From: Terriglobus saanensis SP1PR4
GTDB lineage: Bacteria; Acidobacteriota; Terriglobia; Terriglobales; Acidobacteriaceae
Assembly (NCBI RefSeq): GCF_000179915.2
Contig: NC_014963.1
Span: forward strand, 3,472,001 to 3,536,000
Length of the DNA stretch: 64,000 nucleotides
Direction: 5' to 3'
Shown in pieces: positions 55,077-61,686 of the stretch. Numbering within the stretch: position 1 is the first letter of the stretch; the number at the start of each line of letters is the position of its first letter. The position numbers and the translations under genes were made by a program. The notes below the pieces were generated by a model. The model was not told the origin of the DNA, made no database searches, and worked only from the letters and a program-made list of their open reading frames with translations.

Positions 55077-56621
55077 GTGAAGCGACACAGGTTAATGAAA
55101 AAGTTCAAGCTGCTTGGAGTGGTTCTGATTATCCTCTCTACAACCATCAGCACCACCACGCTGGCACAAATGGGCGCAACATTCGGGCCGCTTTCGCTTC
55201 GCGCAAAGGATCCGGGCCCCCGGCCGAATCCTGCAACGACGATTCCCAACCCCGTACCCGGGCTCAACGCGAATGAGATGGCGCTTTTTAATGAAAGCCT
55301 TCTGCGCGTCTCCGAATTGGAAGGAACATGCGACACCTGCGTTCAACAGCCACAGGGGGTTGCTCCCATCGATCCCGATCCCAAAAACCCATTTTCGCCC
55401 TTAAAGCTGATCAACTCGGCGGGCATGGGGCCGGTGTTTAATGCAGACCAGTGCTTCACGTGCCACTTCCAGCCAACCATCGGTGGCAGCGCTACCCGGA
55501 GCAATGCTGCGCATATCGTTGCTCACAGAATGGGCGCAACAAACGTTGTACCGAGCTTTGAAGAACCAAATGGCGCATTCCGTGAGGTCCGTTTCAAATT
55601 CAACCGAGACGGAAGCCGTGACGGTGGTGTGCATAGCCTCTTTACACTTCAAGGACGTTCCGACGCACCCGCCTGCCGTCTGGAGCAGCCCGACTTCGAG
55701 AAAGAAGTTCAGAAGCGAAATACCGCATTTCGCATTCCGCTCCAGCTCTTTGGCCTGGGTCTGATTGAAGCGATTCAGGACTCCGCCATTCGAGCGAATA
55801 TGAATGCCGACCGGGAGATGAAGCACGCTCTTGGCATCGAAGGTCACCCAAACATCGTTCCCAACAACGGCACCATCAGCCGTTTCGGATGGAAGGCGCA
55901 AAACGCTTCCCTTACCTTATTTGCCGGTGAGGCATACAACGTGGAGATGGGAATCAGCAATGACCTGTTCCCTGCCAGCCGCAACGAAAATACCGATTGC
56001 AACCTATCTTATGCACCCTTCGACGTCCCGCGAACCGACGATGTGTCTTACTTCAACCCTCTTAAAATTATGCCTGCCTGGCTGATGTTCACGGAATTCA
56101 TGCGCTTCGTCGATGCGCCACAGCCCGCGCCGCTGTCTTCGAGTGCGAATCGAGGCAAACATCTTTTCAATGAGGTCGGTTGCGCCATGTGTCACACTCC
56201 GTCGTTCAAAACTCCAGGAATGGCAAACCCAATCAGCCCGTCGGATGAAATCGGCGCCAAAACGGTCGCGCTGCGCGGACAAACCGTAAATCTCTATTCC
56301 GACTTGCTCGTACATCATATGGGAGCAACTTTGGCGGACAACGTCGTGCAGGGCAACGCCGGGCCAGATGAATTCCGCACAACACCTCTCTGGGGCCTCG
56401 GGCAACGCTTGTTCTTCCTGCACGATGGGCGCACACAAGACCTGATGACCGCAATCCAGGATCACTTCTCCTTTCCGGGGTTCGATGGCGGTGACAATCC
56501 TTCGAAGGACCGCGACTCCCAAAAGTATGGATGGTCAGAAGCTAACGAGACAGTCAAACGCTTCAACCGACTCCCAGAAACTGACAAGCAAGCCATCCTC
56601 AATTTTTTGCGATCCCTTTAG
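55077..56621 (+). CDS. Di-haem oxidoreductase (DUF1111, putative peroxidase)
   Basis: A 514-aa exported c-type cytochrome of the DHOR family. The GTG at 55077 has AGGGG upstream; ATG 55095 is an alternative. A signal peptide (FKLLGVVLIILSTTIS) is followed by two haem sites, CFTCH and CAMCH. Other hallmarks are TPLWGLGQRLFFLHDGRTQDL near the end and GLGLIEAI in the middle. Family members resemble bacterial peroxidases. A further CDTC lacks the haem His. It is followed after 25 bases by a small secreted protein, probably in one transcript. Confidence 0.9.
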   Translation: MKRHRLMKKFKLLGVVLIILSTTISTTTLAQMGATFGPLSLRAKDPGPRPNPATTIPNPVPGLNANEMALFNESLLRVSELEGTCDTCVQQPQGVAPIDPDPKNPFSPLKLINSAGMGPVFNADQCFTCHFQPTIGGSATRSNAAHIVAHRMGATNVVPSFEEPNGAFREVRFKFNRDGSRDGGVHSLFTLQGRSDAPACRLEQPDFEKEVQKRNTAFRIPLQLFGLGLIEAIQDSAIRANMNADREMKHALGIEGHPNIVPNNGTISRFGWKAQNASLTLFAGEAYNVEMGISNDLFPASRNENTDCNLSYAPFDVPRTDDVSYFNPLKIMPAWLMFTEFMRFVDAPQPAPLSSSANRGKHLFNEVGCAMCHTPSFKTPGMANPISPSDEIGAKTVALRGQTVNLYSDLLVHHMGATLADNVVQGNAGPDEFRTTPLWGLGQRLFFLHDGRTQDLMTAIQDHFSFPGFDGGDNPSKDRDSQKYGWSEANETVKRFNRLPETDKQAILNFLRSL

Positions 56622-59250: not shown

Positions 59251-59862
59251 TCAAAAGCTGAAAACGACGCCCGCTGTTGGTACTAGAGTCTGGGCGTATT
59301 TATCCAACTTTGGAGCGCCAGATCCAAAGTCGGGTGCCTTGTACAGGTAGTTCTTGCCCTGCAGGCGAAGCGCCAGGTGCCTGCTGAATGGGACGTCGAC
59401 TCCGCCGCCGAAGGCGATCACTGAAGCCATCTGCGACTCAAAGGACGTCGCATTGGGTTGGACAAAGAACATCTCTCCGCCGCCGACGTACAGGAATGAA
59501 TTGAACCGTTTTGTCAGCGGGTTTGGCAGATTGATGACAGCGCCGCCCGTCAAGGTATGAACATCGGACTTGAGGCGAAAGGTGCTTGTCGTGGTCAGGA
59601 ACTTCTGGGAGTTGCGAAAGTAATCGTAGTCTGCCTCAACGCCGATCCAGTGATTGAAGTTGAAGCGATAGCTGCCTTCAGCCAAACCGGCAGATGTTGG
59701 ATCGTAAGTCAACCCGTCGTGGGTGATCTTGCGCGTGATGCTGCCGCCCACGCTGACGGCCATTTGCTGACGCGCGAGCCGCTCGGCGGCGTACGTGGCC
59801 TGGGCTTGCACGGCAGAGCAGGAAAGAGTCAAAGCGACAAAAGCGAAAAGTTTGTTGAGCAT
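59251..59862 (-). CDS. Outer membrane beta-barrel protein
   Basis: 203 aa. The start at 59862 has GGAG 8 bases upstream. The signal peptide (LNKLFAFVALTLSCSAVQA) is followed by alternating barrel strands (MAVSVGGSITRKI, YRFNFNHWIGVEADYDYF, FNSFLYVGGGEMFF, LALRLQGKNYLY) and a terminal Phe (TAGVVFSF), typical of small OmpA/OmpW-like barrels in acidobacteria. An operator copy lies 66 bases upstream. Confidence 0.83.
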   Translation of the reverse strand: MLNKLFAFVALTLSCSAVQAQATYAAERLARQQMAVSVGGSITRKITHDGLTYDPTSAGLAEGSYRFNFNHWIGVEADYDYFRNSQKFLTTTSTFRLKSDVHTLTGGAVINLPNPLTKRFNSFLYVGGGEMFFVQPNATSFESQMASVIAFGGGVDVPFSRHLALRLQGKNYLYKAPDFGSGAPKLDKYAQTLVPTAGVVFSF

Positions 59863-59927
59863 GTAGGATCTCCGTGTTTCCAATTGAGAGTTTGGGTTGC
59901 AAATGCACCAGTCGACTCCAATATAAA

Positions 59928-59988: not shown

Positions 59989-61686
59989 TTAGCTTCGGAG
60001 CTTCAAGTGCAAGGCACTTTCTTTGGATGACGGCGGCAAATTCCCAAGGAATTGGTGAATCAGAGAAATCGCTATGCTGCCTTCGCCAACTGCACTGGCT
60101 ACACGTTTTACCGAACCATGGCGCACGTCTCCGGCACAGAAAAAGCCAGGAAGGCTGGTTTCAAGGTGGAATGGTTGCGCGCCATCCGTGCAGTGGCCGG
60201 CTTCCGTCAAGTCACGCCTGGTCAGGACAAATCCATCCTCGTCCCGTTCTATGGAGGTCGGCAACCAGTCCGTCTTCGCCTCGGCGCCGATCATGACGTA
60301 CATGGCATCGACGCGGCGCTCCACTTCGTCGGCGGTCACGCTATTGCGTGTCCAGACAGAGTGCAAGCGAGCGCCGCCTGACACGGCATAGACAATTGTG
60401 TCGCACTCAATAGCAATGTTTCCTCTGCTGACGATCTGTCGTACGAGGTATTCCGACATGCTTGCTTCCAACCGCGAGCCACGCACTACCAGGGTCACAC
60501 TCTTTGCATACCGGGAGACGTACAGCGCGGCTTGACCGGCGGAGTTGCCTCCACCGACGATGAAGACCGTCTTTCCCGTTACTTGCGGTGGCTCAATCGA
60601 ACCGCTCCCGTAGTAGCATCCTCGACCCACTAGACGGTCCAGCCCTTCAGCTTCTAACCGGCGCCACTCTACTCCCGTTGTCAGCAACACAGAGCGCGCT
60701 TGAATGGAATCTTCACCATCAAGACCAATGCAAAAAGGAGCATTGTCTTCTTTACGTATTTGCTTCACCTTCCGGGTAAGGACGATCTCCGCGCCAAAGC
60801 GCCGTGCCTGCTTGTGAGCCCGCTCACTCAGATCATCACCGGAGATCCCGCTGGAAAAGCCCAGATAGTTCTCGATGCGCGAGGACGTTCCCGCCTGGCC
60901 GCCTATGGCGTGCCGTTCGATCAGCGCGACAGATAGTCCTTCCGACCCGCCGTACACCGCGGCCGCTAAGCCCGCCGGGCCACCACCGATCACCACCAGG
61001 TCGTAAATAGGCTCGGCGGGCGCTGTCCGTATTGCAAGCGCCTTCGCGAGTTCTCGCGGAGAGGCCGTGCAAGGCATCCACTTGTCTCCATCCACGACGA
61101 CGCAAGGGTTGAGGTAGCTTGCAGGGATGCAGGGCGGGACCGCGTCCGGATGTCTGTTACGGTCCACCCATGCATAAGGGATACGGTTCAATTTCAGAAA
61201 GGTTCGAAGCTCAGCCAGATCGGTGATGAGGCCTGCGCCAACAAGCACAACGCGCGCCGATGGCAGATCCCTCGCGTATTGCTCACTGGTGAGGAGCCGT
61301 TCCTTCAACGTCCTAAGGATCGTGACGCCACATTGCGATGGGCCTTGTACTAGCGCCTGTAGCAGTTGCGAAGAGAACTGGGCCACGCGGCTGGGTCCAA
61401 CCGCCCGAATAGAGGAAAGCGAGGGTATCTGAAATAAAGCACCCGCTTCGCCAAAGAATTCTCCAGGACCAAACCGCGCGACGCGCACCTTCTGACCGAG
61501 CACTTCCTTCGTCAGTTCGAGTTCGCCCTCCAAGACGACAAAGAACTCCAAGGTCTCACCTTCGCGGACCAGCCACTCGCAGCCATCCAGAATCACGTCC
61601 GCCGCGCCTTCGGCCAGTTCGCTAAGGCTATCCTCATCCAGCTCGGCGAAGAGGCTTAAGCTCTTCAGAACGTTCGTGTGAATCAT
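59989..61686 (-). CDS. Cyclic-nucleotide-binding / thioredoxin-like / thioredoxin-reductase fusion
   Basis: A 565-aa cytoplasmic three-domain flavoprotein. Residues 1-125 are a cNMP-binding fold (EGETLEFFVVLEGELELT, FGPGEFFGEAGAL). Residues about 145-215 are thioredoxin/glutaredoxin-like but have no CxxC. Residues 228-565 are a thioredoxin reductase with FAD site GGGPAG (234-239) and NADPH site GGGNSAG (378-384), ending in the family motif FFCAGDVRHGSVKRVASAVGEG. The redox CxxC is replaced by C357-YYG. It therefore cannot work like normal TrxR; ferredoxin- or flavin-linked signalling is possible. AGGAGG lies 8 bases before the ATG. Confidence 0.88.
   Translation of the reverse strand: MIHTNVLKSLSLFAELDEDSLSELAEGAADVILDGCEWLVREGETLEFFVVLEGELELTKEVLGQKVRVARFGPGEFFGEAGALFQIPSLSSIRAVGPSRVAQFSSQLLQALVQGPSQCGVTILRTLKERLLTSEQYARDLPSARVVLVGAGLITDLAELRTFLKLNRIPYAWVDRNRHPDAVPPCIPASYLNPCVVVDGDKWMPCTASPRELAKALAIRTAPAEPIYDLVVIGGGPAGLAAAVYGGSEGLSVALIERHAIGGQAGTSSRIENYLGFSSGISGDDLSERAHKQARRFGAEIVLTRKVKQIRKEDNAPFCIGLDGEDSIQARSVLLTTGVEWRRLEAEGLDRLVGRGCYYGSGSIEPPQVTGKTVFIVGGGNSAGQAALYVSRYAKSVTLVVRGSRLEASMSEYLVRQIVSRGNIAIECDTIVYAVSGGARLHSVWTRNSVTADEVERRVDAMYVMIGAEAKTDWLPTSIERDEDGFVLTRRDLTEAGHCTDGAQPFHLETSLPGFFCAGDVRHGSVKRVASAVGEGSIAISLIHQFLGNLPPSSKESALHLKLRS

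Follow-up and report, generated by a model that had tools for sequence, protein, structure and literature searches.

What does a protein built like a thioredoxin reductase do when it lacks a redox cysteine pair and is joined to a sensor fold? The gene that raises this question, P0001, lies in a window (the whole stretch of DNA analysed, 64,000 nucleotides) of the genome of Terriglobus saanensis SP1PR4 (contig NC_014963.1, positions 3,472,001 to 3,536,000). P0001 is a complete open reading frame that runs from ATG to stop and encodes 565 amino acids, and it has the layout of a fusion family in which a cyclic-nucleotide-binding (cNMP) fold, a thioredoxin (Trx)-like segment, and a thioredoxin reductase (TrxR)-like domain are joined in one chain. 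Its features, and one gene next to it, are as follows.

59989..61686, minus strand: P0001, gene for the cNMP-fold/Trx-like/TrxR-like flavoprotein (intact open reading frame, Pfam)
61345..61578, minus strand: cNMP_binding domain (PF00027), residues 37-114 (Pfam, 50.2 bits against a curated cut-off of 27.5)
61402..61455, minus strand: phosphate-binding-cassette region, residues 78-95 (Glu80 conserved; Ser89 where the phosphate Arg would be)
61039..61254, minus strand: small Trx-like segment, residues 145-216, without CxxC (predicted beta-alpha-beta-beta-beta-alpha)
60079..61005, minus strand: TrxR-like FAD/NAD(P) domain (PF07992, Pyr_redox_2), residues 228-536 (Pfam, 109.2 bits; structure matches)
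60970..60987, minus strand: FAD motif GGGPAG, residues 234-239, intact (sequence, alignment)
60616..60618, minus strand: Cys357, the C in C-YYG, conserved in just 2 of 30 (alignment of the P0001 type, CN1)
60592..60612, minus strand: YGSGSIE, residues 359-365, in place of the CxxC-Asp site (alignment of 43)
60532..60555, minus strand: NAD(P) motif GGGNSAGQ, residues 378-385, intact (sequence, alignment)
59251..59883, minus strand: outer-membrane beta-barrel gene, downstream of P0001 (same order in one congener, G032)

The preliminary description of this DNA had proposed the fusion, and its coordinates were exact, with PF00027 and PF07992 both above their cut-offs. It was also right that the FAD and NAD(P) sites are intact and that the redox cysteine pair is missing: there is no CxxC at any position of the 565-residue sequence, the Trx-like part included. 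Its Trx-like domain fared less well. The middle of the protein (residues 145-216) had no Pfam match, and on the predicted order of strands and helices the label is plausible but weaker than those of the other domains. Pfam detected neither a DNA-binding domain nor any other output domain in the protein. The best NCBIfam model was thioredoxin-disulfide reductase (TIGR01292), with a score of 212.2 bits, under the cut-off of 343.45.

P0001 is one of three fused proteins in its own genome. The other two are a protein of the RR type, which has an N-terminal receiver (L002/L070), and one of the CN3 type, which has a more distant cNMP fold (L003/L071). A tree of 72 flavin domains placed the 30 CN1 proteins in one clade (support 0.993) and the 9 RR proteins in a separate one (0.856); the 8 CN3 proteins stood apart from both, joined by 8 proteins from viral contigs (0.948). 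P0001 is 42-53% identical to other CN1 members and 84% identical to its ortholog in the congener G032. The wider family was matched at E 1e-60 or better in 114 of 150 genomes of the window's order, at least 25 of which have a full-length CN1 match (matches listed, read by eye). At E 1e-110, a search of the phylum matched 9 of 297 genomes, all within the window's family, and a single-protein scan of genome contigs gave two distant matches only. Plasmids also carry the family (132 of 72,556 records), with matches from Rhizobium, Rhodococcus, Paraburkholderia, Agrobacterium, Deinococcus, Streptomyces, and others. A protein from Deinococcus aquaticus (WP_273991014.1) shares the domain order of P0001, is 43% identical to it, lacks CxxC at the TrxR site, and has one CECC elsewhere; it differs from P0001 in sequence divergence only.

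Two further arrangements were seen among the relatives. Thirty viral-contig loci (L112-L141) encode relatives, most of them stand-alone flavoproteins of roughly 300-360 amino acids; at the TrxR site, CxxC is missing in 27 of the 28 that were readable, and L141 keeps CATC. The sole PHROG match of five scanned viral proteins and of P0001 was PHROG 6397 (positions 3-328 of 473), whose label, 'ribonucleotide reductase large subunit', looks wrong for the matched part. In two genomes, two P0001-type genes point in opposite directions at a distance of about 1 kb (L079 5784-10254 and L086 5821-10340), with one open reading frame of 322-324 amino acids in between.

Judged from aligned sequences, the loss of CxxC is a trait of the fused family, in which another, strongly conserved site, made up of Tyr359, Glu365, Lys527, Arg528, and Glu535, has taken the place of the motif. 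We aligned 43 fused sequences (30 CN1, 8 RR, and 5 CN3) with three TrxR controls. Cysteine was found at the CxxC columns (361 and 364) in none of the 43 fused relatives, in contrast to all three ordinary TrxRs; P0001 has Ser361 and Ile364 there. CxxC was also missing in seven further members that were read by eye, and the CxxC strings present elsewhere in 4 of the 43 (CRRC, CLNC, CECC, and CLRC) were never at the TrxR site. Glu365, where the controls have Asp, was found in 43 of 43, as was each of Arg402, Ser411, Tyr413, Lys527, Arg528, and Glu535, and Tyr359 was kept in 42. The column of Cys369 held Cys in all 13 RR and CN3 proteins and in 0 of 30 CN1 proteins, and Cys517 was present in 27 of 30 CN1 proteins and 0 of the 13 others. 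The C-YYG that had been read in place of CxxC was a misalignment. Its cysteine, Cys357, sits four residues ahead of Ser361, the first CxxC position, in a column that is Val in 26, Ile in 2, and Cys in 2 of the 30 CN1 proteins, the 2 being P0001 and its 84%-identical ortholog.

The near-complete conservation of the substitute site counts against decay. A decayed pseudo-enzyme would account for the loss of both CxxC and the phosphate Arg of the cNMP cassette; the alternative site, however, is invariant or nearly so, the open reading frame is intact, and the family is matched across the order as described above. We regard decay as highly improbable. The reading that we prefer, with a probability of roughly one half, is that P0001, rather than being a conventional thioredoxin reductase, is an NAD(P)H-dependent FAD oxidoreductase gated by a signal, and that its FAD passes electrons directly to a partner. 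NAD(P)H would reduce the FAD and, with no disulfide relay, electrons would go from FAD straight to a partner docked at the position equivalent to that of thioredoxin on TrxR. The cNMP fold would control the flavoprotein in response to a signal other than a cyclic nucleotide bound in the canonical way.

The modelled structure of P0001 appears to fit TrxR in the reduced (FR) arrangement best. The AlphaFold model was built from 23 sequences and had a mean pLDDT of 82.2. Averaged over ten residues, pLDDT mostly exceeded 85 across the flavin domain, with 73 for residues 361-370, and ranged from 47 to 79 over residues 31-120. Foldseek and VIA matches spanned residues 211-558 at most and barely covered the cNMP and Trx-like parts. 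The best matches were TrxRs, including 3r9u (Z 36.0), 5mh4 in the FR arrangement (Z 35.9, rmsd 1.8 over 302 residues), and 1f6m, a TrxR with thioredoxin (Z 35.4, rmsd 2.4). The fit to 5mjk, in the FO arrangement, had an rmsd of 6.4 (Z 31.6), and that to 5w4c, which is titled FO, an rmsd of 4.5. A control with CATC (L141), whose alignment was also made up mostly of CxxC-less rows, was likewise nearer to FR (rmsd 3.0 to 5mh4, 5.7 to 5mjk, and 3.5 to 5w4c), and the FR/FO contrast is therefore only suggestive. As proof of mechanism, the FR-like conformation is weakened by this control and by the rmsd to 5w4c.

TrxR-like ferredoxin and flavodoxin NADP reductases are likewise not known to carry CxxC, and P0001 could be an enzyme of that type. 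Such reductases are among its structural matches (8c16, Z 29.4, rmsd 3.1), but TrxR entries score higher, and we think this identity quite improbable. Low-Mr TrxR (TrxB) shares with P0001 the FAD/NAD(P) fold and both dinucleotide motifs; P0001 differs in having no CxxC, Glu for the Asp of CxxCD, an added sensor domain, and a TIGR01292 score under the cut-off. The top Foldseek match (rank 1) was AhpF, which has an N-terminal Trx-like part and a TrxR-like core, a layout resembling that of P0001, with CxxC motifs. P0001, in contrast, has no CxxC and scored 147.1 bits against a cut-off of 502.9 with the AhpF model TIGR03140. The score for the bacillithiol disulfide reductase YpdA (TIGR04018) was 61.8 bits against a cut-off of 339.9.

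The cNMP fold of P0001 is unlikely to bind cAMP or cGMP. In protein kinase A, an Arg of the cNMP cassette binds the phosphate. In the corresponding column, set by alignment with protein kinase A, none of the 30 CN1 proteins has this Arg of canonical cAMP/cGMP receptors (Ala in 19, Ser in 5, Thr in 4, Val in 1, and Phe in 1). In CRP, Arg82 is required for cAMP binding, according to PMC4868304. Because the phosphate Arg is absent in 30 of 30, cAMP and cGMP, which the preliminary description had named as ligands to try, are disfavoured. The pocket to which it had pointed keeps Glu80 in all 30 CN1 proteins, but its Arg position is Ser89 in P0001 and the site is not intact. Descent of the P0001-type fold from the kinase described below was unsupported, as its best score was 61.2 bits to the kinases' folds versus 62.8 to protein kinase A, and a search of the genome with residues 1-145 of P0001 found P0001 itself and nothing else.

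A finding new here is that the receiver-bearing sister proteins adjoin a histidine kinase that has a cNMP fold of its own. The RR protein of the T. saanensis genome carries PF00072 and is directly followed by a 483-amino-acid kinase with PF00027 and HATPase_c. This kinase was found at E 1e-30 in 80 of 120 genomes of the order. In 78 of 78 genomes with a pair, kinase and RR flavoprotein were on the same contig and within 410 bp (pairs of the best kinase match and an RR-type match among the matches listed, made by eye); the other two genomes with the kinase, G056 and G079, had no flavoprotein among the matches listed. All 30 kinase loci that were fetched contained the flavoprotein. On seven RR-bearing plasmid loci, we scanned nine kinases and found PF00027 above the cut-off of 27.5 bits in eight, on six loci: two kinases each in Caballeronia (L094) and Deinococcus (L143, one of them 2.6 kb upstream), and a kinase in Gloeothece (L144), Nostoc (L145), Streptomyces (L095, 28.8 bits), and Tsukamurella (L108, 28.0 bits). 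The exception was a second Nostoc locus (L110), where the kinase is 2.6 kb off and has a receiver in place of PF00027. In Novosphingobium (L092), three kinases close to the CN3-type gene likewise had no PF00027.

Because the sisters have a receiver at the N-terminus and lie beside a kinase, the flavoprotein looks like an output. This fits an input role for the cNMP fold of P0001, and the coupling to a sensor fold that had been proposed from the DNA alone stands. P0001 might instead be a flavin-based redox sensor, its flavin domain monitoring the state of NAD(P)H or oxygen and passing a signal to a partner, with catalysis incidental. The lack of an obvious electron outlet and the signalling domain attached in all 30 aligned CN1 members would suit a sensor. 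However, the place of the receiver in the sisters, and the failure of Pfam to find an output domain in P0001, make it unlikely.

No fixed operon for P0001 emerged from 20 loci compared; in these 20, two of which are not of the P0001 type, the recurring neighbours seen by eye were parts of RND efflux systems (7 loci), LysR regulators (5), and a permease (5). The congener G032 keeps both downstream genes in place, the beta-barrel gene and one of no known type. Within the window, positions 55077-56621 encode a protein that resembles di-haem oxidoreductases (DHOR) and has a match to cytochrome c. None of 21 CN1 loci (11-16 kb each) had a gene for a UBP-type zinc finger, the cNMP-fold kinase, or a WCGPC-type motif; the UBP search recovered 8 of 8 known UBP loci as a positive control, and the Trx motif search ran without a control. 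As the CN1 loci have no conserved partner, our inference of a system rests on the sister clades.

In some lineages, the sister genes lie near a gene for a UBP-type zinc finger (PF02148), which is present in 126 of 150 genomes of the order. In at least seven genomes (G069, G091, G096, G117, G134, G144, and G145), no more than 0.7 kb separated the finger gene from an RR or CN3 match, and 4 of 31 UBP loci, taken with up to 1.5 kb of flanking DNA, held an RR or CN3 flavoprotein. In most genomes, the two genes were not side by side among the matches listed. The T. saanensis locus is not one of the 4; its single UBP gene (G000:C1:5010138-5010332, L039) is unlinked to the three fused flavoproteins. 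In family f1, the presence of one gene was associated with that of the other, with both in 106, flavoprotein only in 8, UBP only in 10, and neither in 12 (odds ratio 15.9, p 8.5e-7, with absences of unlisted genomes inferred and relatedness and genome size uncorrected). On plasmids, at least 22 of the 60 UBP records listed (87 in total) had a listed flavoprotein match within 1.6 kb, and as many of these records are near-copies, they are not independent. By annotation, the two genes are in a row in Streptomyces, Tsukamurella, Rhodococcus, and Rhizobium, and form a divergent pair in Burkholderia. Literature searches found no paper that links the UBP finger to a thioredoxin reductase or an FAD oxidoreductase. 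Two Rhodococcus plasmids have the row dnaK-grpE-J domain-cbpM-clpB-trxA-UBP finger-flavoprotein (L105 1-7420, L106 1-6861), in which the trxA, finger, and flavoprotein genes overlap. The trxA gene is two genes upstream of the relative, and the one of the two trxA products that was read has WCGPC.

Thioredoxin reduction, which the preliminary description had named as evidence against its own proposal, may already be on record for a probable relative, ATII-TrxR, a 552-amino-acid Crp/TrxB fusion from a Red Sea metagenome. PMC6544261 reports that it binds FAD, works with either NADPH or NADH, and reduces DTNB and also thioredoxin, the latter with a Km of 1.03 uM and a kcat of 28.4 per s. Among the literature matches listed, this was the only paper that we noticed on a protein of the P0001 layout. 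The cysteines given there are 206, 223, and 376 (spacings 17 and 153), and 467. Relatives from Cupriavidus campinensis, which have no CxxC at the TrxR site, have spacings of 17/153 (L101) and 17/152 (L103), with no counterpart at the spacing of Cys467. On this match in cysteine spacing, ATII-TrxR probably belongs to CN3, not to the subfamily of P0001.

P0001 might thus be a real thioredoxin reductase without CxxC, its FAD reducing the thioredoxin disulfide directly or by way of scattered cysteines. Three of the four ATII-TrxR cysteines match the CxxC-less Cupriavidus relatives by spacing, and the trxA, finger, and flavoprotein genes are in a row at two Rhodococcus loci, both of which would fit such an enzyme. 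Against it, the P0001 subfamily does not have even the one conserved cysteine of its sisters (column 369), and the T. saanensis genome has two ordinary TrxRs with CATC, by which the job of thioredoxin reductase is already covered. We consider this reading doubtful, though the most probable of the alternatives to the signal-gated oxidoreductase. For that oxidoreductase, which we prefer, we would look first to a protein thiol or a partner with a thioredoxin fold as the acceptor, a possibility that we hold with some reserve; a quinone, metal, or oxygen may serve instead.

Based on the sister loci, we tentatively propose, at less than even odds, that the CxxC-less flavoproteins serve as the enzymatic output of a sensing circuit that is built on the cNMP fold and comes in split and fused forms; the input would gate electron transfer from NAD(P)H via FAD to a partner protein, without a disulfide relay. 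In the split form, the cNMP-fold kinase would act on the receiver-flavoprotein, joined in some lineages by the UBP-type zinc finger; in the fused form, that of P0001, the sensor would be joined directly to the flavoprotein. Relatives, the Deinococcus aquaticus protein among them, are annotated by NCBI as 'cyclic nucleotide-binding domain-containing thioredoxin-disulfide reductase', a name that implies a disulfide reductase despite the missing catalytic disulfide and that the sequence does not support. If the gating is real, a redox enzyme would be a direct output of bacterial signalling, and if the kinase or the cNMP fold gates electron flow, this would also point to a possible role of the bacterial UBP-type zinc finger.
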